Shown here: piece by piece, positions 2,207 through 29,370 of the stretch | Layout of the letters: the number at the start of each line of letters is the position of its first letter | How positions within the stretch are numbered: the stretch's first letter is position 1 | IMG/VR virus record: IMGVR_UViG_3300001341_000125 | Location: 1-30,851 of that record | Direction: 5' to 3' (one strand) | From: a virus | Length of the DNA stretch: 30,851 nt | The notes under the pieces: generated by a model | What the model was told of the DNA's origin: nothing | What the model saw: only the letters and a program-made list of their open reading frames with translations | The model's database searches: none | Program-made: the position numbers and the translations under genes

Positions 2207-2849
2207 GCGAGAGATCGCACACGAGATGGATGCAACGTTAAGCGTTTGCCCTGCAGCGCAAGGGGTCGACACGACGACGTTTGCAAAAATCGCGTTTCGG
2301 GAATACGGCGCACAAGAGCCCTACGTCATTAAGGCGGCGTTCGACCGTGTACGGAAAACCGTTCGAGTGCCGCTGCGGTTCTCGCATATCGACGAGGCGT
2401 TTGCTTGGGCGGCGAAGAATGCGGAACGGCCAAAGCCGCCGCCTGAAAGAACGCTCCCAAACAAGTCGGATCTTGCGTTTGACGAAGCCCGTTTGATTGT
2501 CGCTTGGATTGACGGCAACACGGCGGTTTCGGCGCGCGCCCTGCCGCAGTTCTTTCTTGACCGCGGCCTTAAGGGGACGCTGGGACCAACAGAGCTTGCG
2601 CCTTATGTCCGCGGTTGTTCCGATGCTGGCGTTAACAAGGCGGCAAGCTGGATCGCGTGGGCGTGCGAGCTGCCAAAATCCGCGTCACGTGGAAACGAGG
2701 TGATTGGCCCGGTTCAAAACATTGTCGGGATGCTGATCAAAAACGATCCCGCTGAGATCAGGCGAATGAGCGATATTTACATGCGCGCGACTGGCAAAGA
2801 GTGGCCGGACGCATCATCGCAAACACAAAAAGAAGAGGGGCGCGCGTGA
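2115..2849 (+). CDS. Hypothetical early protein, partner of the initiator
   Basis: This is a 244-residue product. ATG 2115 is preceded by GAGGGA (2105-2110), which decides it over the upstream TTG at 2103. It overlaps the initiator gene by 92 nt in another frame. Residues 1-35 are Lys/Ser/Asn-rich and disordered, and the remainder looks helical with scattered Trp. I find no Walker motif, zinc site or HTH I can defend. Lying immediately downstream of the initiator, it holds the slot where lambda-like phages carry the helicase loader, so that is a candidate role from position only. Its stop overlaps the next start (GTGA). Confidence 0.65.
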   Translation: MTENAETKSHDTNDPKGSRKASKNSPPSESEREIAHEMDATLSVCPAAQGVDTTTFAKIAFREYGAQEPYVIKAAFDRVRKTVRVPLRFSHIDEAFAWAAKNAERPKPPPERTLPNKSDLAFDEARLIVAWIDGNTAVSARALPQFFLDRGLKGTLGPTELAPYVRGCSDAGVNKAASWIAWACELPKSASRGNEVIGPVQNIVGMLIKNDPAEIRRMSDIYMRATGKEWPDASSQTQKEEGRA

Positions 2850-3454
2850 AACGGCATAGTGTTGCGAGGGACTGGGAAACGGATCGTTTGAATGAAGTGC
2901 CGTGTACGGACACATCCGCTAAATGGCTAGCGTTGATGACACCTACGGGTAAGGAGGTCGACGCGGCCATTATTCTAGAAAGGCTGTCAGTGCGGGTATA
3001 TGCGCCGACGATCAAGAAATTTATGAGGCGCGGGCGCAGTCGCAGCAAATTCAAGATTGTCCATACGTTCAAAGCGTTTTTGCCGCGGTATATTTTCGTG
3101 GCGCTCGACGATGAGGCCGCCGTTATCCGGGCGCTTTATCGCACGAGCTATGTTCGCGGCGTGCTTGGAGTTGGCGGCAGGCCTTACCTGATCGACACGA
3201 AAAAGATTGAGGAAATCAACGACAGCCGTAACGAAACAACAGGCGCGGGCCGTTCGAACGAAAAGCCGATCGTGGCGTCTCGTGCGATAGATCCAGCAAA
3301 ACCTGTGCGCATCGATGTCGGTCCGTTCACTGGCCATTACGTCCGCGTTCGTGATCTTAACGAGCGCGAGGTAGAAGTTGCGTTGACGTTGTTCGGTCGC
3401 GAGGCGGGCTTTCAATGGTTGAGCCTTGACCATGTCTCTCAATTGCCTGTATAG
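2846..3454 (+). CDS. NusG/RfaH-like transcription elongation/antitermination factor
   Basis: This 202-residue NusG paralog should bind RNA polymerase and alter pausing or termination. Residues ~26-125 match the NGN domain: Trp27, TPTGKEVDAAIIL, a basic arm, FLPRYIFV, then RTSYVRGVLGVGG. Residues ~152-197 match a KOW domain (VRIDVGPFTGHYVRVRD and following strands). GTG 2846 is chosen because AGAGGGG (2834-2840) lies just upstream and the start overlaps the previous stop; an extension to 2801 lacks a ribosome site. The N-terminal ~25 residues and the ~30-residue linker are longer than in housekeeping NusG. It sits last in the early block, directly before a structured non-coding stretch and the late genes, which suggests late-gene antitermination. 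The family is clear; the role is inferred. Confidence 0.82.
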   Translation: MKRHSVARDWETDRLNEVPCTDTSAKWLALMTPTGKEVDAAIILERLSVRVYAPTIKKFMRRGRSRSKFKIVHTFKAFLPRYIFVALDDEAAVIRALYRTSYVRGVLGVGGRPYLIDTKKIEEINDSRNETTGAGRSNEKPIVASRAIDPAKPVRIDVGPFTGHYVRVRDLNEREVEVALTLFGREAGFQWLSLDHVSQLPV

Positions 3455-3481
3455 GCGTTCGTGACGGATCGAAGCTACGTT

Positions 3482-3670
3482 GTGGTGTAATGACGCCACG
3501 GGCTTCCCCAGGGGCGGCGCTGAGGCGCAAATCCCCGCGACGAGAGAAAAATGTCCAAAATTCTAACCGTCGCTCACGGACTCTAAAAATCTAATTAAAC
3601 GGCTTCCCTTGCTTGCAGGGGCCCGCCAGACGCCGCGCTAACTCACATCGGGTTGGCGCGGCGTTTCATT
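3482..3670 (+). promoter_or_regulatory. Structured leader between NusG-like gene and late operon
   Basis: The gap 3455-3685 has no convincing gene but can fold into four hairpins in a row: 3482-3499 (GTGGTG/CGCCAC), 3511-3536 (GGGG and GCGC paired with GCGC and CCCC, TGAG loop), 3601-3623 (CCCT/AGGG plus GGC/GCC) and 3631-3663. The last has a 12-bp stem CGCCGCGCTAAC/GTTGGCGCGGCG with one G-T pair and a 9-nt loop, followed by TTTCATT. An A/T-rich stretch at 3582-3600 could hold a -10 element. It could be a terminator/antiterminator leader, a polymerase-recognition RNA, or a late promoter region. It ends 15 nt before the next start. Confidence 0.55.
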
Positions 3671-3685
3671 GAAAGGATCTGTCCG

Positions 3686-4009
3686 TTGCCCGGCGATCTA
3701 TTCAAGAAACCATCGCTGCAAGAGCGCATCAACACGGTGAAGTCCGTTGTGCGTTTTGACGTTGTGGCGAAGGCGCTGAACCTTTGGCGGGATGGTGCAG
3801 CCGCGCCGGATTGTCCTCATTGCCAGGCAAAAGCGGAACTGCAGGCGTGTCACGACGGAAACGGTTACCATTGCGGGGCCTGTCACAGCCGCGGCGACAT
3901 GATCGATCTTGTTCAGGCCGTCAAGCAGGGGTTTACGGGCGATGCGGTGACGTGGCTTGAGCTGAACTGTGCATCATCCAAAGCCGAGCAACCCGAGCTG
4001 GATTTGTGA
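3686..4009 (+). CDS. Stand-alone CHC2-like (DnaG-type) zinc-binding protein
   Basis: This 107-residue protein carries CPHC at residues 43-46 and CGACHSRGDMIDLV from residue 63. That resembles the CHC2 zinc domain at the N-terminus of DnaG primases (Cys-x2-Cys/His, then CxxC followed by G-[ND]-x-[IV]-[DE]-[FL]). No TOPRIM or helicase domain follows. TTG 3686 is preferred because GAAAGGA at 3671-3677 sits 8 nt upstream; the longer frame from TTG 3653 starts inside the hairpin and has no ribosome site. The stop overlaps the next gene in GTGA. It might bind ssDNA or act as a primase cofactor or packaging helper. Confidence 0.7.
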   Translation: MPGDLFKKPSLQERINTVKSVVRFDVVAKALNLWRDGAAAPDCPHCQAKAELQACHDGNGYHCGACHSRGDMIDLVQAVKQGFTGDAVTWLELNCASSKAEQPELDL

Positions 4010-4869
4010 CAGTAGACGGTCGGCGGTCACAGAACTGGCGCGCATCGACGCTGTTGTGTCCAAAAGATCTGCCGCCTGCGGCGTGTGATCTTACGGTTGT
4101 TGCGGGCCCGCCGGCGGCGGGCAAGACAACCTGGGCCAACGCAAATGCAGAGCACGTCATCGATCTCGACGTCATTCTGCAACGTTTGACCGGGTTTGAG
4201 CGCCGCGGCCCATCGATCTCGTTTCTGCATGCAGCGCTTACCGAGCGCAACGATATGCTAAGAGCGTTGCAACACGAGGTCCGCGTCACTGCCTTTATCG
4301 TGACGGCCCCGGACGGCGATGAGCGGGCGCACTGGAAGCGAATGCTCGGCGCGCGACAGATCGTTGTTTGCAATCCAGGCGAACGAGTATGTCGCAACCG
4401 GATTGTTGCTGACGACGACAGGGTCGATGTCCGCCGGCGACAGATTGCAGCCCTGCGTCGTTGGTATAAAGAGTTTACGCCCTGCGATGACGACGTATCG
4501 ATCGGCGACGGCGGCGCTGAATACCAATCGCTTTACGGATCGCAGGCCTGGAAACGACGGCGCGCAGCGCATTTGAAAACCGAACCGCTTTGCCGTCGAT
4601 GTCTTGCGATTGGAATTGTCAATGACGGGACGCTGACGATGCAAGGGCAAGCACAGCCGAACCGCCGTCGTCACTTCCTCGTCGCTGATCATATCGAGCC
4701 GCACCTCGGCGACGCTTACAAGTTTTGGAACGGCGAGCTGCAAACGCTTTGCCCTGATCATCACGACAAAGCGAAGCAGGTCGAGGAGCATCGCGGCTAC
4801 TCAACAGAGACCGGTGCAGACGGTTGGCCGGTCGACGTGTCCCACCCTGGGAACAGCGCAAAGGGGTAG
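4006..4869 (+). CDS. P-loop (kinase-like) and HNH endonuclease fusion
   Basis: This 287-residue protein has two parts. Residues ~28-155 are a P-loop domain: Walker A GPPAAGKTT at 34-42, then VIDLDVIL, as in small AAA/polynucleotide-kinase-like phage proteins. Residues ~175-260 are an HNH nuclease: LYGSQAWKRRR, CRRC (196-199), ADH (227-229), Asn242, and LCPDHHDK (Cys249, His252/253), with the second Cys/His cluster completing the zinc site. HNH proteins beside terminase genes are established partners in cos cleavage and packaging (HK97 gp74 is the known example). Small terminase follows two genes downstream, so a packaging role fits. The unusual point is the fused P-loop domain. The GTG start rests on the GTGA overlap; the ribosome site is weak. 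Confidence 0.8.
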   Translation: MTVDGRRSQNWRASTLLCPKDLPPAACDLTVVAGPPAAGKTTWANANAEHVIDLDVILQRLTGFERRGPSISFLHAALTERNDMLRALQHEVRVTAFIVTAPDGDERAHWKRMLGARQIVVCNPGERVCRNRIVADDDRVDVRRRQIAALRRWYKEFTPCDDDVSIGDGGAEYQSLYGSQAWKRRRAAHLKTEPLCRRCLAIGIVNDGTLTMQGQAQPNRRRHFLVADHIEPHLGDAYKFWNGELQTLCPDHHDKAKQVEEHRGYSTETGADGWPVDVSHPGNSAKG

Positions 4870-4975: not shown

Positions 4976-5164
4976 ATGACGTTTCATTTTGAGACGCCCG
5001 AATGGGTGGCCTGGTTGTTCGCGGTTTGGGTAGTGCTTCGTCTGATTGAGACCGGTTTAACCGTCCGAAAGCACTACCTCGAAAGAAAGCGATTGCGGCT
5101 GCTGAGTCGCACGGGCCGTGTCGCGCCCGAAGCCGCCGCCATGTTTGACCGCAAAAATCGATGA
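4976..5164 (+). CDS. Small single-pass membrane protein
   Basis: This 62-residue protein has one strongly hydrophobic Trp-rich segment (about residues 9-28, WVAWLFAVWVVLRLIETGL) followed by a basic cytoplasmic-type tail rich in Arg and Lys. ATG 4976 has AGGT about 9 nt upstream. A longer in-frame reading from 4814 would overlap the HNH gene and cross the putative cos region, so it is rejected. The function is unknown. It lies between the HNH and terminase genes, a place where phages often carry small accessory genes. Confidence 0.55.
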   Translation: MTFHFETPEWVAWLFAVWVVLRLIETGLTVRKHYLERKRLRLLSRTGRVAPEAAAMFDRKNR

Positions 5165-5177
5165 GAGCGAGCGTCCG

Positions 5178-5699
5178 ATGTCGAACGCAGGTCGAAAATC
5201 GAAACAGGCGGATGTCATCCCATATCGGGATAAGAACGACAAAGTCGCCGACAATGAACGCAACGAGCGCATTGCCGCGCGCCATGACCGGATGGCGCAA
5301 GAGCGCGCTGCGGCGCTAAAGCCGAAAGGGCTTCCGCACGCAGTTGCGAAGATTTGGGACATCATGGCGCCAGCGGCGTGTCACCCGACCAAAAACAGGG
5401 TCGTCGACACCATGTCAGCGCACGCCTTTGCGATGCTCTGCTACGAGGTCGAGCGGTTCCATCGCCATTCGCGCTACCTGATGCGCAAGGGCGAGACATA
5501 CGAATCCGAAACGCGAAATGGATTTCAGCTCAAAAATCGTCCGGAAGTCGGTCAGCAAAACATCGCCTGGGGCCATGTTTGGCGCGCAATGCTCGAGTTC
5601 GGGATGACCCCTAACTCCGCAAAAAACATTCTCAACGATGCACCGCCTGGATTGTTCGACGATGAAGACGAGGACAGCGAAGACGAAGACTTTAGCTGA
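5178..5699 (+). CDS. terS: Terminase small subunit, P27 family
   Basis: This 173-residue protein recognises phage DNA at the packaging site and hands it to the large subunit. The P27-type pattern is visible: a charged N-terminal region, then PHAVAKIWDIMAP, an AHAFAMLCYEVERFHRHSRY helix, a KGETYESETRNGFQLKNRPE turn, and a C-terminal EFGMTPNSAKNIL block, followed by an Asp/Glu-rich tail. ATG 5178 is chosen over the upstream 5118 start because that extension runs through the previous gene and a purine-rich GAGAGCGAG precedes 5178. It overlaps the large terminase by 62 nt. Confidence 0.85.
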   Translation: MSNAGRKSKQADVIPYRDKNDKVADNERNERIAARHDRMAQERAAALKPKGLPHAVAKIWDIMAPAACHPTKNRVVDTMSAHAFAMLCYEVERFHRHSRYLMRKGETYESETRNGFQLKNRPEVGQQNIAWGHVWRAMLEFGMTPNSAKNILNDAPPGLFDDEDEDSEDEDFS

Positions 5700-7440
5700 G
5701 ATCGACCCCGTCACTTTCTGGGCCGAACAGGTCGTTGATGAGAAAATTATTGCCGGCCCGCACGTGCGCAACGCATGTCGGCGCCACCTTCGCGACTTGG
5801 AAAGCGGCGGCGATCGCGGCCTCATTTGGAACATCAACGAGGCTCGCCGCATCATTGATTTGTTTCCGCGACACCTCTGCCTTAATGGCGGAAAATTCGA
5901 GGGCAAACCGTTCCATCTACATCCGTCGCAACAGTTTCGCGCCGGCGCTCTTTTTGGGTGGCAGGTCGAAGGCGACGACGGCATAGAGCGTCGCTTCCGG
6001 CGGTTCTATGACGAGGAGGGGAAAGGCAACGGGAAATCGCCTTTCTTGGCCGGTCTCGGCTTTGTCGGTCTTTGTTTTGAGAATCGGGCGCGCGCGGAGA
6101 TCTACGCAGCGGCCGGCAAGAAAGACCAGGCGATGGTCTTGTTCAAAGACGCAGTCGCGATGCGCGACCAGTCCCCTAATCTCACAGAGCGCGTTTCGTG
6201 CATCGGGCGCAATCCGGTCAAAGAGCTTAAGTACATCGGTAAGCGCGGCGACGAGCGATTTTTCAAGCCGCTTTCGTCTGACAACAAGCAGTCAGGTATC
6301 CGCCCCTTCATGGCGCTGAATGACGAGGTGCATGAGCATAAAAACGGAACGACGGTTGAGATGCTCGAGCGCGGCGTTGCCAAAAGTCCGATCAACTCGC
6401 TTATGGCAATGGCGACGAACGCCGGGCACGACCGGTTGTCTTATTGCTTCGAACAGCACACGCATGCAATTCGCGTCGCCGCCGGCGATATAATCGATGA
6501 TCGAACCTTCGCATTTGTTTGTTCGTTGGACCATGGCGACGACTGGATGAACGACCCCGAATGCTGGGGCAAAGCAAATCCACTACTTGGGGTCACGATC
6601 CAACGCTCGGATCTCGAGGCCGCCGTCGCTCAGGCGAAAGCGATCGCCGGCATGCGCAACAACATTGCGCGCCTTCACTTCTGTGAATGGACCGAAGCGC
6701 ACACCGTATGGATTGAACGCAGCGAGATTGAGGCATGCGAGGATCCTGACTTTGATCTCGCTGAGTTTGAAGGGCGCAAATATTGGGAAGGCCTGGACCT
6801 TTCAATGACGCGGGACATGACCGGGCGGGCGCGGTTGTTCGAAGATGGTAAGACTGCAGACGGAAAGCAGTGTTACGCCCTTTGGGTTCACGGCTACATG
6901 CCCGGCGACACACTCCAGAAACGAGCAATCGAGGATCAAGCGCCATACACGCAATGGGTCGATGAGGGATTCATAACACCGACGCCTGGCGTAAAGGTAA
7001 ACTATCAAACTGTCGCCAATGACATCATCGGCGATGCGCGAAGCGGCAATATGGAGTCGCTCGCATTCGATACGTACCTCGCGCAGTTCTTCGTCGATGA
7101 GCTCGACGAGGCCGGGGCTGACCTTCCTTTGATCGAACATCCGCAAGGATGGAATCATCGGAAAGGGTCGCCGCTGTTCATGCCGGACTCGATAACGATC
7201 TTTGAGCAGCTCGTTATGGAACGGCGGATACGCTTTCACGTAAACCCTGCGTTTCGCGCTGCGATGATGGCGGTCGTCTTTAAGTGGTCGCCAATCGGGT
7301 TGCGGAAGTTTGAAAAGTCGACGGCGCAAGCGCGCATCGACTTGGCGATCGCAGCCGCCCAGGCGGTCGGTAACGCGACGGCAAACCATGAAAGTCCGAA
7401 AGTTATGACCTTCCCAGAAGATTACGAGCTGCACGCATGA
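5638..7440 (+). CDS. terL: Terminase large subunit (ATPase/nuclease)
   Basis: This is the packaging motor: it translocates DNA into the prohead using ATP and cuts the concatemer. In 600 residues the P-loop variant is EEGKGNGKS (126-134), equivalent to the RKNGKS-type Walker A of the YmfN/Terminase_1 group. Walker B is FMALNDEVHEH (acidic pair at 229-230). The nuclease domain starts at GLDLSMTRDMTG (Asp387), with later acidic residues in LAFDTYL and ARIDLAIAAAQA. ATG 5638 and ATG 5662 are both possible, and neither has a good ribosome site, so translation is probably coupled to the small subunit. The stop overlaps the portal start (ATGA). Confidence 0.93.
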   Translation: MHRLDCSTMKTRTAKTKTLAEIDPVTFWAEQVVDEKIIAGPHVRNACRRHLRDLESGGDRGLIWNINEARRIIDLFPRHLCLNGGKFEGKPFHLHPSQQFRAGALFGWQVEGDDGIERRFRRFYDEEGKGNGKSPFLAGLGFVGLCFENRARAEIYAAAGKKDQAMVLFKDAVAMRDQSPNLTERVSCIGRNPVKELKYIGKRGDERFFKPLSSDNKQSGIRPFMALNDEVHEHKNGTTVEMLERGVAKSPINSLMAMATNAGHDRLSYCFEQHTHAIRVAAGDIIDDRTFAFVCSLDHGDDWMNDPECWGKANPLLGVTIQRSDLEAAVAQAKAIAGMRNNIARLHFCEWTEAHTVWIERSEIEACEDPDFDLAEFEGRKYWEGLDLSMTRDMTGRARLFEDGKTADGKQCYALWVHGYMPGDTLQKRAIEDQAPYTQWVDEGFITPTPGVKVNYQTVANDIIGDARSGNMESLAFDTYLAQFFVDELDEAGADLPLIEHPQGWNHRKGSPLFMPDSITIFEQLVMERRIRFHVNPAFRAAMMAVVFKWSPIGLRKFEKSTAQARIDLAIAAAQAVGNATANHESPKVMTFPEDYELHA

Positions 7441-10997: not shown

Positions 10998-11053
10998 CGG
11001 CCTCACGGCCGGACGTCACCTGGTCCCGCTTAGTGCGGGGCCGCTTTATTTTT
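10998..11053 (+). terminator. Intrinsic terminator after the capsid gene
   Basis: A small CGGCC/GGCCG hairpin (10998-11011) is followed by an 8-bp GC stem GGTCCCGC/GCGGGGCC (11022-11029 with 11035-11042, one G-T pair, TTAGT loop) and then GCTTTATTTTT. This has the form of a rho-independent terminator. It lies inside the structural operon, so it likely gives partial termination that favours capsid mRNA. Confidence 0.7.
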
Positions 11054-12136: not shown

Positions 12137-12493
12137 ATGACCGTTCCGGCTGGACGATTTAAGGATCGTATCACGTTCCAACGGCGGGCGACCGCATCCG
12201 GACTTTACCAGGCGGACGGCCAGTCTTGGTCGGATGTTGCAACGGATGTTGCCGCGTGGATCAAACCACTCTCAGGTAAAGAGGAGCTCATCGCTGAACG
12301 ATTGCAGGGCGTTCACGCCGCTGTAATAACCGTGCGTGATGAGGCTGCGCTCGCGAGCATTTCGACTGCTTGGCGCATCCTGGATACGAGAACGTCCGAC
12401 GTTTTCGATATCAAACATATCGCGAAGAATGATTTTCATGATCGTTTTCTGACGATCACATGCGAAGCCGGCGCCGGCGACGATGCGGGCTAA
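12137..12493 (+). CDS. Head-closure/head-tail joining protein (gp16/HK97 gp7-like)
   Basis: At 118 residues this has the size and beta-rich pattern of Phage_H_T_join proteins: a start with GRFKDRITFQRRA, a W-S-D-V-A strand (QSWSDVATDVAAWI), a GKEELIAERLQGV segment and a late W-R-I-L-D strand. It plugs or extends the connector so that DNA stays in the head and the tail can dock. In related phages the tail-completion gene follows directly. Here the next gene overlaps by 11 nt and begins an inserted sugar cassette instead. Confidence 0.82.
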   Translation: MTVPAGRFKDRITFQRRATASGLYQADGQSWSDVATDVAAWIKPLSGKEELIAERLQGVHAAVITVRDEAALASISTAWRILDTRTSDVFDIKHIAKNDFHDRFLTITCEAGAGDDAG

Positions 12494-13145
12494 TGGTTCA
12501 ACGCGTCATCATCCCCAGCCAGTGGGCGCGGCAACGGCGTGGCTTCCGGATCTTAAAGGGTGTTGTGTCGTTGTCGTGGCTGGCGGGCCAAGCGTCCGTT
12601 CCGCGCGATTGAAAGACTATTGGCACAAGGCGGTATTCGTCACCGTGAACAATGCGGCGTTTCTCGCGCCGTTCGCGGTGATGGCCTATGGCTGCGACGC
12701 ACGATGGTGGCGGTACGTCGACTTGTTGCCGGAATTCAACGGTGTTCGCGTTTCCCAGGACGAGGAATTTCGAACAGGCAACACTGGGGTTCGATACATC
12801 AAAAGCGTTCGGCGTGAGCGGTTTGAAGATCAATTTCAGCACGACAAGTCGCGAATAATCTGGGCGGGCAACGGCGGGACGCAAGTGTTGAACCTGATCG
12901 CCCATGCAGGTCCGCCGGCGAAGATCTGTCTAGTCGGCTACGATATGCATCTTAGGTCTGGCAAAAACTGGCACCGTGATCATCCTTGGCGGATACCCGC
13001 TCTGGCCGCGAACGTGGAGCGTCACCGCCGCGTGACGGATGCGATCGCGAAAGATCTGCAGGGCTTGGGGATTGACGTTGTCAATTGCTCGCCTGGCTCG
13101 GCACTTACGAGCTATCGCTTTTCGACTCTCAAGCAGGAATTGTAA
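12483..13145 (+). CDS. GGPS-motif (DUF115/MAF-like) putative glycosyltransferase, copy A
   Basis: This 220-residue protein has a Rossmann-like start with AGGPSVR (33-39), then VNNAAF, MAYGCDARWW (67-76), SQDE (91-94), AGNGGTQVLNLIAHAG (128-143), CLVGYDMHL, a WHRDHP block (163-168) and NCSPGSALTS (201-210). The GGPS plus N-A and CD-WW pattern resembles DUF115/motility-accessory-factor type proteins linked to sugar transfer onto proteins or surface glycans. A second copy lies at 14284-14943. ATG 12483 overlaps the previous gene, and GTG 12522 is an alternative start. The family link is from motif memory; substrate is unknown. It opens a four-gene cassette. Confidence 0.65.
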   Translation: MRANGSTRHHPQPVGAATAWLPDLKGCCVVVVAGGPSVRSARLKDYWHKAVFVTVNNAAFLAPFAVMAYGCDARWWRYVDLLPEFNGVRVSQDEEFRTGNTGVRYIKSVRRERFEDQFQHDKSRIIWAGNGGTQVLNLIAHAGPPAKICLVGYDMHLRSGKNWHRDHPWRIPALAANVERHRRVTDAIAKDLQGLGIDVVNCSPGSALTSYRFSTLKQEL

Positions 13146-13148
13146 GTT

Positions 13149-13676
13149 TTGACGTTCGTTCACGAGAAAGCACATGTCGACGATAGCGTCGTGCTCGGCG
13201 AAGGGACACGCGTCTGGCAATTTGCATCAATCACGCGCGGCACGGTTATGGGCCGCAACTGTTCTGTGTCGCCGGGCGCTATGCTGGACGGTTCGGAGTA
13301 CGGTGACAACGTGATCATTTCCGCCGGTGTTGCCGCCGGCGCGGGGTTTCTAGTCGCTGACGACGTTTTCATTGGACCCAATGTAACGCTTTGCAATGAC
13401 CTTTGGCCGTATGCGGATAAAGATGGTTACGACGACGACGCGCTGCGGGACCGCAACAACAATTTCGCGGTTATCGTTCACAAAGGTGCAGCGATTGGCG
13501 CGGGTGCAATCATCTTACCAGGCGTCGTGATTGGTCAGCGCGCGGTCATCGGTGCGGGGTGCGTCGTCGGGCGATCCGTCAATGACGATGTTGTCTTTAA
13601 TGGGCGAACGTCCGGTCGCGTTCCGCCGGACTGGAAAGAAAAACGAATGCGGTTCTGCGCAAGGTTTCGTCCATGA
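13149..13676 (+). CDS. Left-handed beta-helix acyltransferase (sugar O/N-acetyltransferase)
   Basis: This 175-residue protein is built of hexapeptide repeats ([LIV]-G-x4) in two blocks (about residues 7-82 and 110-145). They are interrupted by the loop DLWPYADKDGYDDDALRDRN. The IGPNVTLCNDLWP motif (75-87) and HKGAAIGAGAIILPGVVIG (111-129) are typical of the WbpD/WlbB/WxcM-type acetyltransferases that use acetyl-CoA to acylate amino or hydroxyl groups of nucleotide sugars. TTG 13149 is the likely start, 3 nt after the preceding gene, with AGGA about 11 nt upstream. The stop overlaps the next ATG. It probably modifies the sugar handled by its neighbours. Confidence 0.82.
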   Translation: MTFVHEKAHVDDSVVLGEGTRVWQFASITRGTVMGRNCSVSPGAMLDGSEYGDNVIISAGVAAGAGFLVADDVFIGPNVTLCNDLWPYADKDGYDDDALRDRNNNFAVIVHKGAAIGAGAIILPGVVIGQRAVIGAGCVVGRSVNDDVVFNGRTSGRVPPDWKEKRMRFCARFRP

Positions 13677-14287
13677 TTACCGTCGCAACGTTGTTATGGG
13701 ATGCGAACGACCAATCGTTCCCGTTCTCGCGGATGTACGATGAGGCGTGGGTTGAAAAGCTCTATAACGGCGTTGCCCGCAATCTGTCTGCACCGTTCAA
13801 GTTTGTTTGTTACTCCGAGCGCCCGCGCTCGTTTCATGCGCCGATCGATGTTCGGCAGATGCAAAATCAAACACCAGGCTATGGCGATTGCATTCAACCA
13901 TACGAGTTGAATGCGCCGATGATTTTGATGGGCCTCGACACGGTTATCACGGGGAACATCGACCATTTGGCGGATTACTGCATGAGGGCGTCGCTAATCG
14001 CGTTGCCGCGAGATCCGTACAAGCCGCAGCAAGCGTGCAACGGCGTTGCGCTAGTGCCCGGCGGTAATGGATGCGTCTGGTCAAACTGGGCTGGTGAAAA
14101 CGATATGGATTGGATGCGCGCGCATCCGCACGCCTTCATTGACGATCTCTTTCCTGGACATGTGGTCAGCTACAAGGGTGAAGCGGAAGCGGCAGGCCTA
14201 CGCGACGCCCGGATCGTTTACTTCCACGGATTGAAAAAACCGCATGAGCTTCCGCATGTGGCATGGATCTCGGAACACTGGAAATGA
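13673..14287 (+). CDS. Putative GT-A glycosyltransferase
   Basis: This is a 204-residue protein. Residues 25-60 (AWVEKLYNGVARNL, FKFVCYSERP) match the start of GT8-like enzymes. MGLDTVITGNIDHLADY (86-102) fits the metal/nucleotide-sugar site in which the usual DxD is reduced to LDT. NGVALVPGG (123-131) and the late VYFHGLKKPHELPH (182-195), with conserved His and basic residues, complete the pattern. It starts and ends in ATGA overlaps, so it is tightly coupled to the acyltransferase before it and the GGPS protein after it. It probably transfers a hexose-type sugar; donor and acceptor are unknown. Confidence 0.72.
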   Translation: MITVATLLWDANDQSFPFSRMYDEAWVEKLYNGVARNLSAPFKFVCYSERPRSFHAPIDVRQMQNQTPGYGDCIQPYELNAPMILMGLDTVITGNIDHLADYCMRASLIALPRDPYKPQQACNGVALVPGGNGCVWSNWAGENDMDWMRAHPHAFIDDLFPGHVVSYKGEAEAAGLRDARIVYFHGLKKPHELPHVAWISEHWK

Positions 14288-14943
14288 CCGCCTGCAGCGC
14301 AGCGCCTGTAGGTGCGGTTTCATCGCTTCCAGATTGGGGCCGTGTTGTAATTGTCGGTGGCGGGCCAAGCGTGCGTGCCCAGGTCGAACAATGGAATCCG
14401 TGGTCCGCGCAATCATGGTCTGTGATCGCCATCAACGAGGCATGGCGACTGTTGCCTGTTGAACGCATCGACATGCTTTACGCCTGTGATGTTGAATGGT
14501 GGCGCGTGAATGATGGCGCGCAATTTTTGAAAGCAGCATGCTGCATCAAGGCGTCACAAGACGAACGCGCATGTAAACAATGGCCTGATATCGATCGGGT
14601 CTGGATGCAAGATCCGCAGCGGTTTGTTTTTGGAGAGAAGGGCGAAATCGGCGGCGGCGGCAATAGCGGCTTTCAAGCGCTCAACCTGGCTGTCAGCATG
14701 GGTGCGACCGAAATCGCGCTCGTCGGTTTCGACTACACGATTGACAGGGGAACGCACTGGCATGGCGATCACGTCGCACCGCTTTGGAATCCCTTTCGCG
14801 ACACGTGTCGCAAATGGGTCGAGGACATGACGAAGGCCGCGCCCCAAATTGCCGCCGCCGGCGTGACTGTCTGGAATTGCTCGCCAGAGTCAGCGCTGAC
14901 TTGTTTTGAAAAGCGAGACCTTTCGATTGTTGCAACCGATTGA
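14284..14943 (+). CDS. GGPS-motif (DUF115/MAF-like) putative glycosyltransferase, copy B
   Basis: This 219-residue paralog of the protein at 12483 shares ordered blocks with it: GGPSVR (26-31), IN-A (50-53), YACDVEWW (66-73), SQDE (91-94), GNSGFQALNLAVSMG (126-140), LVGFD (146-150), THWHGDH (157-163) and WNCSPESALT (197-206). The spacing is mostly preserved, so the pair arose by duplication or from a common source. ATG 14284 is preferred for its ATGA overlap; ATG 14263 would add seven residues. It closes the sugar cassette. The conserved Asp after YAC and the HWHGDH block are the likeliest catalytic or ligand residues. Confidence 0.65.
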   Translation: MTACSAAPVGAVSSLPDWGRVVIVGGGPSVRAQVEQWNPWSAQSWSVIAINEAWRLLPVERIDMLYACDVEWWRVNDGAQFLKAACCIKASQDERACKQWPDIDRVWMQDPQRFVFGEKGEIGGGGNSGFQALNLAVSMGATEIALVGFDYTIDRGTHWHGDHVAPLWNPFRDTCRKWVEDMTKAAPQIAAAGVTVWNCSPESALTCFEKRDLSIVATD

Positions 14944-17198: not shown

Positions 17199-19730
17199 AT
17201 GGTGCAGGAAACCGAAGTTCTGGTCACGGAACTGCGCGCGGACATCAAAAAATATGAGGCGGCGCTTCGCAAACAGGTGAACGCAACGAATAAGGCGGCG
17301 CGAGATACAGAGCGTCGATTCAACCGCCTTAGCAAAAAAGTGGAACGCGACAGCAACAACATCGCGCGCAGCATCAGTCGCGGTTTTTCTGGCGCGCAAA
17401 AAGCGGCGATCGGTCTGTTCGGCGTTTTGAGCGTCGGATCCGGCCTTCGGCTTCTGGATAGCGTGTCACGCCAGTCGATCAGCGCCGGCGACGACCTGGC
17501 GAAAATGGCGGCGGCGGTTGATATTTCAGTTGAGAGATTGGACGCATTGCGTTTCGCGGCACAACGGTCCGGGGGCACGATTTCCGGTCTCGACACTGGC
17601 ATTCTAAAGTTCACAAAATCAATCGGTGAAGCGCGCGCGAATACCGGCGCGCTTTTTACGCTTTTGGATCGCATCGATCCCGGCGTGCTGAACGAGTTGC
17701 AAAATGCGTCGAGCACCGAACAAGCGCTCGACATTTTGTTTGAGCGGCTGAAAAACAGCGAGGATGCATTCGAAAGGAACGCGATCGCATCCGCAGCGTT
17801 TGGACGAACCGCTGGTAAGGCCTTCGCAAAGCTATCACTGGAAGTCGATGGCTTGCTTTCCGACTTTCAAAAACTCGGTGGCGGGATCGGCACTGAGCTC
17901 GCGAAGGAAGCGGAGGAAGCCGAGGACCGCCTAACGGATCTAGATGTTGTTCTGAAAAACCGTCTCAATGTTACTGTCCTTGAAAATATCGAAGGCTTCA
18001 TACAGTTCAAAACACTGATGAACGATATTGCGACGGGCGCGGTCGGTTTCGCCGCGAATGTCGGCAACGCGGCGAACGCGCTAGATCGTTTCTTTGATCG
18101 GCTGCCCGGCGCGACCATCCGCGATGAGTCGCAGGTCGATGATTTGCTCGTGCGTCGCGAGCGACTATTGATGAAAATCGATGAACAGCTCGCGCGTATC
18201 GGTGAAGCGCGTCAGCGGATCGAAGACAGCACAGGCCTCGGTTCAAATTTCTTAGATTCGATCGACGAAAGCGGCATTGAAAAACGCCGCAATACCCTGC
18301 GCGAACTTTCATTAGAGTTGCTCAAAGTCAACAAGGCGATTGATGAGGGGCGCCGCCGCGACGCGCGCGCTGCGGTCGCTCAAGCTGATGCGTCTGGCGG
18401 GGCGCCTGTCGGCGGCGGTTTTGTAGATCCGCGACGGCTTGAGGAAACCGAAAAGCTGATCGCGGACATCGAAAGCGCTTGGCGCGACGCGTTCGAAACA
18501 GAGGCGGAAGGTATTGAGCGGACCAGGCGTGAGCGCATTGAAGCGCTACAAGAAAGTGTGGCGGGCGAGCAAGAGCGCGCACGAGCGATCAAGCAAATCA
18601 ATGAAACCGCCGATGAACAACTCCGCATCATTCGCGAAAATCAAGCGCAAGAGGAACGAGACTTTGTTGATGCGTTGGTCGATCAACGTGATCGTGCAAC
18701 AGGCCGAATTATTGCGGCAACGGTCCGCGAGTTTGATGCACGCGAACGACAGATCAACGAAGAAATCCAAAACGAAGAACGCCGCAATACCGCTCTGCAG
18801 GCCCTCGTCGAGGAGCGCGCAGCGTTTGAAGCTTTTGAGCGCGCTAACCTTCCTGGATCTGGATTGACGGATTTTGAGGAACAGATCCGGGAGATCGCGA
18901 CTTTCGAAGCCGAAAAAATGGCGGTGATCAAAGACGCATTTGACGCACAGTTGATCACACTGGCGGAATTCGAGGCGCGGCGTCGGAACATCATTGAGGA
19001 GAGCGAATCCGAAATCACAGCGTTCCGAAAGGCAATGTTAGCGACACAATTGTCGGACGCGTCGGGAACATTCGGTGCGCTTGCCGGTATCGTCAAAGAC
19101 TTCGCCGGCGAGACGTCGTCAACGTATCAGGCCTTGTTTGCGGTGCAAAAGGCCTTTGCGGTGTCGTCTGCCATCGTGTCGACGTCGAATGCGGTGACGA
19201 AGGCGCTTGAAAGCGCGCCGCCGCCGATCAATTTCGTCAACGCTGCATTAGTCGCTGCGGCTGGCGCCGCCGAGGTGGCGACAATCGCGAGCCAGGGCTT
19301 CCGTCAGGGTGGACGCATTGTCGGTCCAGGCGGGCCAACGGACGATGCTATTCCGGCCTTGGTTGATGGTCGACGCCCGATTGCTGTTTCCAATGGCGAA
19401 TTTATCGTCAATGCGGAAGCAACAAGTCGGAACCTGGCGCTGTTAAAGGCAATCAATGCGGGTCGCGGCTTTCAGGGCGGCGGGCTCGCCGGCTTGGGCG
19501 CACCGCAAATCGCACCGCCGCGGTTGAATGCGGCCGCTCCAATGCGCCCCCCAATTGTCAACGTTCCTGAAACATCGGTTCCCGTCACAGTGAATAATTT
19601 TATTGATCCGGTGCAGGTCGTTAACGCGGCGCTTTCCACGCGGTCAGGCCAAAAAGCGGTTCTGAACGTAATCCAGCGCAATCGATCGACGGTGAACGCC
19701 GATTTGGGGGCGGGCGGCCGTGTCTCTTGA
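17199..19730 (+). CDS. Tape measure protein
   Basis: This 843-residue protein sets tail length and is ejected during DNA entry. Residues 1-60 are a basic coiled coil. There are Ala/Gly-rich hydrophobic stretches around 65-85 and again near 640-710 (including IVSTSNAVTKALESAPPPI and NAALVAAAGAAEVATIA), with long Glu/Arg coiled coils between about 405 and 600. The C-terminal VVNAALSTRSGQKAVLNVIQ and the GGRIVGPGGPTDDAIPALVD segment are common in tape measures. It is the largest tail-core gene. Lambda H has 853 residues for a ~135-nm tail, so a similar length is expected. It overlaps the next gene by 11 nt. Confidence 0.92.
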   Translation: MVQETEVLVTELRADIKKYEAALRKQVNATNKAARDTERRFNRLSKKVERDSNNIARSISRGFSGAQKAAIGLFGVLSVGSGLRLLDSVSRQSISAGDDLAKMAAAVDISVERLDALRFAAQRSGGTISGLDTGILKFTKSIGEARANTGALFTLLDRIDPGVLNELQNASSTEQALDILFERLKNSEDAFERNAIASAAFGRTAGKAFAKLSLEVDGLLSDFQKLGGGIGTELAKEAEEAEDRLTDLDVVLKNRLNVTVLENIEGFIQFKTLMNDIATGAVGFAANVGNAANALDRFFDRLPGATIRDESQVDDLLVRRERLLMKIDEQLARIGEARQRIEDSTGLGSNFLDSIDESGIEKRRNTLRELSLELLKVNKAIDEGRRRDARAAVAQADASGGAPVGGGFVDPRRLEETEKLIADIESAWRDAFETEAEGIERTRRERIEALQESVAGEQERARAIKQINETADEQLRIIRENQAQEERDFVDALVDQRDRATGRIIAATVREFDARERQINEEIQNEERRNTALQALVEERAAFEAFERANLPGSGLTDFEEQIREIATFEAEKMAVIKDAFDAQLITLAEFEARRRNIIEESESEITAFRKAMLATQLSDASGTFGALAGIVKDFAGETSSTYQALFAVQKAFAVSSAIVSTSNAVTKALESAPPPINFVNAALVAAAGAAEVATIASQGFRQGGRIVGPGGPTDDAIPALVDGRRPIAVSNGEFIVNAEATSRNLALLKAINAGRGFQGGGLAGLGAPQIAPPRLNAAAPMRPPIVNVPETSVPVTVNNFIDPVQVVNAALSTRSGQKAVLNVIQRNRSTVNADLGAGGRVS

Positions 19731-29335: not shown

Positions 29336-29370
29336 GCCGTCGCCGTCCAGGATCCGGGCGGCGGCTTTTT
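29336..29370 (+). terminator. Intrinsic terminator inside the lysis module
   Basis: GCCGTCGCC (29336-29344) pairs with GGCGGCGGC (29357-29365, one G-T pair) and is followed by TTTTT. This is a regular rho-independent terminator, 20 nt before the ATG of the next gene. It implies that downstream genes are transcribed at a lower level or from a separate or antiterminated transcript. Confidence 0.72.

Follow-up and report, generated by a model that had tools for sequence, protein, structure and literature searches.

A NusG paralog beside a folded leader: a candidate switch for late-gene antitermination in phages

In phage lambda, the Q gene precedes the late operon, whose leader terminator must be read through, and the put RNAs of phage HK022 and the EAR element bind RNA polymerase directly. 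How late genes are switched on in most alphaproteobacterial phages has, to our knowledge, not been worked out. Among specialised NusG paralogs, LoaP provides an experimental precedent in which a leader RNA hairpin and an intrinsic terminator are combined with read-through of further terminators in the operon (PMC12691694). In the passages of PMC7819879 that concern them, RfaH is described as weak against intrinsic terminators, and UpxY as a NusG paralog encoded beside its own operon, acting on the 5′ leaders of Bacteroides capsule operons. As for phages, PMC12429752 lists a "transcription antiterminator" gene in all phiLM21-like prophages and, for phiLM21, places it in the same region as an HNH endonuclease; nowhere does that paper use the word NusG, and its relevant passages mention neither a leader RNA nor a terminator. 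The passages on rfaH-like genes in PMC7819879, a review of the NusG family, and in PMC7593976, on the evolution of RfaH, mention such genes on prophages but describe no phage late-gene group. A text search of the open-access literature found no description of the rhizobial leader reported below.

The NusG paralog and the folded leader of the window

The window analysed here is the full 30,851 bases of a virus contig, IMG/VR record IMGVR_UViG_3300001341_000125, whose genes lie mainly on the + strand. A replication protein, an ORF and a NusG paralog are followed by a gap of 231 nt, after which come zinc-ribbon, AAA-HNH, small and large terminase subunit and structural genes:

1145–2206, + strand: replication-initiation type protein with a helix-turn-helix (Pfam HTH_36, E 1.9e-6)
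2103–2849, + strand: ORF of unassigned function, lying between the replication and NusG genes (ORF list)
2846–3454, + strand: divergent NusG paralog with NGN and KOW domains, 202 aa (PF02357, phrog_6386, AlphaFold2, fold matches)
3671–3677, + strand: ribosome binding site GAAAGGA of the first late gene (sequence)
3686–4009, + strand: first gene past the leader, zinc-ribbon DnaG-type, start TTG at 3686 (sequence)
4006–4869, + strand: AAA_33 P-loop domain fused to an HNH endonuclease (Pfam, PHROG)
5118–5699, + strand: terminase small subunit (Terminase_4, E 3.4e-10)
5638–7440, + strand: terminase large subunit, TerL (TerL domains in Pfam; phrog_9, E 4.7e-116)

The replication protein matches replication initiation and DnaD-like families in PHROG and, weakly (E 6e-6), the replication protein of Sinorhizobium phage phi3LM21; genes of this class precede the NusG gene throughout the rhizobial phage family described below. 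The Pfam search assigned no family to the ORF at 2103–2849, whose stop codon overlaps the GTG start of the NusG gene, and the match of the zinc-ribbon gene to Zn_ribbon_DnaG is weak (E 2e-4, below the Pfam cut-off). Two further features of the map are recorded as side observations. At 4006–4869, a kinase-like P-loop domain (AAA_33) is joined to HNH near the small terminase gene. Four ORFs among the structural genes (12483–14943) look by eye like sugar or acyl transfer enzymes, with 12483–13145 and 14263–14943 resembling each other, and are possibly a set for virion or host-surface modification.

The original prediction of a NusG-like protein with NGN and KOW domains was borne out. The product of 2846–3454 matches the Pfam NusG family PF02357 above the family cut-off (E 1.2e-10) and phrog_6386 with an E of 1.9e-17. 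Its AlphaFold2 model (mean pLDDT 81) shows an NGN fold and a C-terminal beta barrel, and solved NusG and RfaH chains match this model with a Z of about 11 over 100–110 residues. The sequence-model match to KOW is weak and below the cut-off, but the strands of the KOW barrel are modelled between residues 154 and 199, in a block with pLDDT mostly of 79–92, and the C-terminal part aligns over the conserved GPF motif. This is a true NGN-KOW protein of the NusG superfamily. Since phrog_6386 also matches housekeeping NusG (343 of 385 genomes), it was rejected as a marker of the phage proteins.

The protein fits none of the named NusG subfamilies that were compared: it scored 28.5 bits with the housekeeping NusG model TIGR00922 (cut-off 135.7), 28.6 with the RfaH model TIGR01955 (cut-off 144.5), 28.4 with the LoaP model NF033641 (cut-off 125) and 32.5 with the UpxY model (cut-off 100), the last being its best NCBIfam match. 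In the tree, it falls outside the chromosomal NusG clade and, on a very long branch, beside four RfaH-like paralogs (support 98/89) and apart from the rhizobial phage proteins; a single clade of the window protein and the phage proteins was not rejected (p 0.42). Furthermore, no ops-like site with up to two mismatches was found in 3455–3690, and such sites showed no excess across the window.

The gap downstream of the NusG gene is strongly folded. The predicted folding energy of 3455–3690 is −101.3 kcal/mol, compared with −79.8 ± 4.5 kcal/mol for shuffled sequences (z −4.78), and none of 200 shuffles was as good. Five hairpins are possible in this leader:

3471–3506, + strand: hairpin A, −16.3 kcal/mol
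3511–3536, + strand: hairpin B, two short helices separated by an asymmetric internal loop, −12.3 kcal/mol
3537–3573, + strand: hairpin C, weak, −10.4 kcal/mol
3600–3625, + strand: hairpin D, −10.3 kcal/mol
3628–3666, + strand: hairpin E, terminator-like, stem of 16–17 bp and tail TTTCATT, −30 kcal/mol

The gap can form hairpins as had been proposed, but five of them are possible instead of four, and the last has a longer stem than the 12 bp attributed to it. Hairpin E is the most stable 42-nt fold of the whole window on both strands (−30 kcal/mol), and no dinucleotide shuffle of the gap was as stable (0 of 300). The T-rich end ascribed to it is present but modest, as TTTCATT is short and two or three of its T residues lie inside the stem, which makes the strength of this terminator uncertain. 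Its placement directly before the late operon held: 19 nt, including the GAAAGGA site, separate its end at 3666 from the TTG start at 3686, a distance that leaves no room for a promoter. A search of the window leader against Rfam gave nothing at gathering level, with three sub-threshold matches (E 0.34–0.99) that are at chance level.

Terminator-like hairpins had also been predicted inside the late operon, and two were recovered by the hairpin scan, both between late genes and each shortly before a start codon:

11021–11043, + strand: terminator-like hairpin directly after the capsid gene, tail CTTTATTTTT
29339–29365, + strand: terminator-like hairpin with tail TTTTT, close to where the late operon ends

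Under stricter criteria, the window holds six terminator-like sites on the + strand and one on the − strand. Separately, a GC-rich hairpin followed by TTTTT was seen at 17633–17652, on the coding strand inside a long tape-measure-type gene, and is a possible further obstacle to late transcription.

A conserved cassette in rhizobial phages

Comparison with annotated phage proteins gave a single relative of the window NusG, from Sinorhizobium phage phi3LM21 (25%), and the phi3LM21 protein in turn retrieved five more, from PPF1, phi2LM21, vB_MseS-P1, Rivra and the "Nostoc" phage Nsp-JY10. In these six phages, the NusG gene is preceded by an HTH-type or replication protein (unnamed in Nsp-JY10) and followed by a largely non-coding gap, with terminase genes next wherever the fetched stretch continues. 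Alignment of the six gaps, which had played no part in a retrieval based on NusG protein similarity alone, revealed a conserved stretch; in five of these phages, a terminator comes after it (e.g., GGCGGCC-GAAA-GGTCGCC-TTTTT). A 26-nt motif taken from this conserved leader was then searched on its own in both strands of 257 Gb of sequence, where arithmetic predicts about 0.03 chance matches, and was found in at least 120 viral contigs and in 35 genomic stretches, mostly of Rhizobiales, which are apparently prophages.

The gene context of these motifs is strikingly uniform. A NusG-like ORF ends 91–182 nt upstream of the motif in all 137 loci with at least 500 bp of upstream sequence, a figure that counts related phages rather than 137 independent events. 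Likewise, an HTH replication protein lies upstream in 114 of 114 loci with 1.5 kb available on that side, and all 60 loci with 4.5 kb available downstream have TerL there. The common cassette, present in more than 100 phages other than the window, consists of an HTH replication protein, a NusG paralog and a structured leader RNA, in most cases with an intrinsic terminator behind it, and then late genes including TerL. The NusG proteins themselves are diverse, forming 43 clusters at about 60% similarity.

The leader of this family is a structured RNA of ~165 nt that carries compensatory changes. Pairing in the motif hairpin is kept in 93.8% of cells across 94 distinct elements, with 97 double-change cells compared with 31 in shuffles, which do not preserve relatedness, and at most 30 in slid controls. 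RNAalifold, applied to 43 full leaders of one subgroup, predicted a multi-arm structure closed by GCUGA/UCAGC, covarying to UCCGA/UCGGA. For the whole leader, with the motif hairpin's inner helix included in the count, 98 double-change cells were found, against 29 in shuffles of the same kind and at most 18 in slid controls, the latter being lenient here since the structure was taken from the alignment on which it was tested. No Rfam family matched this leader. The covariance model R1 found one copy in nine of ten prophage-bearing whole genomes and two in the tenth; across 385 alphaproteobacterial genomes, leaving the known carrier aside, it gave 19 weak matches, none with an adjacent NusG gene.

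A GC-rich hairpin with a T-run occurs within 110 nt past the motif in 80 of 93 leaders, compared with 8 of 465 mononucleotide-shuffled stretches. These terminators comprise 51 different stem-loops, and the end of the stem typically lies 14–17 nt from the next start codon, which leaves no room for a promoter, so that the late genes need read-through. Moreover, the gene that follows varies between phages while leader and terminator stay constant, indicating that the terminator belongs to the leader. It is not indispensable, as the remaining 13 of the 93 leaders (L012, L020, L035, L069, L117, L139 and others) keep the RNA with no intrinsic terminator by the criteria applied; in these phages, the target may be Rho-dependent or distal termination.

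Several individual records deserve mention. In the genome that carries locus L169 (G010), the leader RNA occurs twice, on separate contigs, and there are probably two prophages with the same system. Nsp-JY10, although recorded from Nostoc, has the NusG cassette and leader RNA of the rhizobial phages, and may in fact infect a rhizobium that lives alongside the cyanobacterium. Finally, NusG-like matches also came from five gut records named "Bacteriophage sp.", of which at least two look bacterial: read by eye, the ORFs of MT836236.1 and MT838431.1 show NusG among what look like genes for ribosomal proteins and polymerase, or else a capsule-type locus with a UpxY-like gene, and both are probably bacterial contigs.

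A proposed late switch and its alternatives

The window follows the gene order of the cassette (HTH replication protein, NusG, leader, then HNH, TerS and TerL), with one extra ORF and the zinc-ribbon gene in addition. Hairpin E occupies the position of the family terminators, with a spacing of 19 nt instead of the typical 14–17 and a short U-tract. The leader sequence itself is different. Model R1 found nothing in the window leader (its best window match, at 8 bits and E 0.34, lies outside it), the 26-nt motif is absent from the window, and so is the 5′ block of the rhizobial leader. An 11-nt identity (CGCTCACGGAC) between the window leader and locus L065, seen by eye, was put down to chance. 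IMG/VR was searched with five window proteins (NusG, TerL, portal, capsid and AAA-HNH), and the 385 alphaproteobacterial genomes with NusG and TerL; locus L234 aside, no close relative with a NusG gene beside late genes was retrieved, and none close enough for a covariation test of the window hairpins was found in these collections. The window is either a very diverged cousin whose leader was replaced or an independent case in which a NusG paralog was recruited to this position, and is best read as a second, analogous or very diverged version of the rhizobial system.

We consider it probable that these loci perform late antitermination dependent on a NusG paralog, in a manner similar to LoaP in its logic and to Q in its position. 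In this scheme, the last gene of the replication operon would supply the phage with a NusG paralog of its own. Transcription leaving this operon would enter the folded leader and halt at hairpin E, ahead of the late genes, until enough paralog had accumulated to be recruited to RNA polymerase through the leader, either in its RNA form or through the corresponding non-template DNA. Remaining on the polymerase through its NGN domain, the paralog would then carry it past hairpin E and past the terminators at 11021 and 29339, so that the late genes would come on only once the paralog had been made. A NusG paralog with a leader of the LoaP kind would thereby take the role that Q has in lambda, and the leader of the window, unrelated in sequence to that of the family, would serve the same purpose. 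For the rhizobial phages, the comparative sequence case is strong, the predicted late switch being supported by gene order, the covarying leader RNA and the terminator before the first late gene (80 of 93). For the window, the case is good, by analogy and from its own fold, and unproven. The antitermination switch originally predicted is partly supported, in other phages by comparative evidence and in the window by layout, fold strength and terminator position, the family RNA being missing from the window leader.

Three other readings compete with this one. It is unlikely that the hairpins of the window simply serve for partial termination or processing, with the NusG paralog as a chance neighbour. 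The window leader indeed shares no sequence with the family leader, and terminators downstream of capsid genes, such as that at 11021, are a common way to set protein ratios; nevertheless, both the gene order and the spacing from terminator to start codon resemble those of the family, and the strongest hairpin of the genome sits exactly in this leader. A self-sufficient RNA, in which the leader itself would act as the antiterminator on RNA polymerase in the manner of HK022 put or EAR while the paralog helps or serves otherwise, would agree with the multiple arms and strong conservation of the rhizobial leader and with its size, which exceeds that of the single hairpin required by LoaP. An RNA acting alone, however, would not need the NusG gene that adjoins every leader with enough flanking sequence (137/137), and we regard this possibility as quite improbable.

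The location of the late promoter bears on the remaining alternative, in which hairpin E would end early transcripts, a late promoter would lie within the leader as does lambda pR′, and the paralog would act globally, for example against Rho. Between positions 1 and 16000, a scan for a sigma-70-type promoter consensus gave fewer matches than shuffled sequences; such a consensus may miss alphaproteobacterial promoters. Yet the terminator comes after the conserved RNA and abuts the ribosome binding site (modal distance to the start codon 14–17 nt, 19 nt in the window), so that even a promoter upstream of it would still require read-through, and we judge this alternative very unlikely.

Comparison with known antitermination systems

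If antitermination by the NusG paralog is correct, a phage NusG paralog with its own leader RNA would add a third mode of late antitermination to those based on Q-type proteins and on put-type RNAs. LoaP-like control would extend to phages, and the rhizobial leader would define a new family of structured RNAs whose partner protein is obvious. A broader statement, that in alphaproteobacterial tailed phages Q-type control has given way to a NusG paralog recognising a hitherto undescribed structured leader RNA of ~165 nt, and that the window, with an unrelated leader and a separately derived paralog, marks a second origin of this solution, is put forward only tentatively.

The closest parallel is LoaP on the dfn and mln leaders of Bacillus velezensis, where a specialised NusG paralog is likewise combined with a structured leader RNA and then an intrinsic terminator, and where the operons contain further internal terminators, as does the late operon of the window (PMC12691694). 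LoaP targets antibiotic operons, whereas the targets here would be phage late genes; its leader is one UNCG hairpin, that of the rhizobial phages a multi-arm RNA of ~165 nt, and that of the window different again. RfaH is a NusG paralog too, and the nearest tree neighbours of the window protein are RfaH-like, but RfaH uses ops, which has no counterpart in the window leader. The placement of the paralog beside its operon is similar for UpxY, in capsule operons rather than phages. No Q homologue came up in the general annotation of the window. With lambda Q and its pR′/tR′ region, the window shares a regulatory gene placed before the late operon and a leader terminator that needs read-through, although Q itself, unlike the window protein, is not a NusG homologue.
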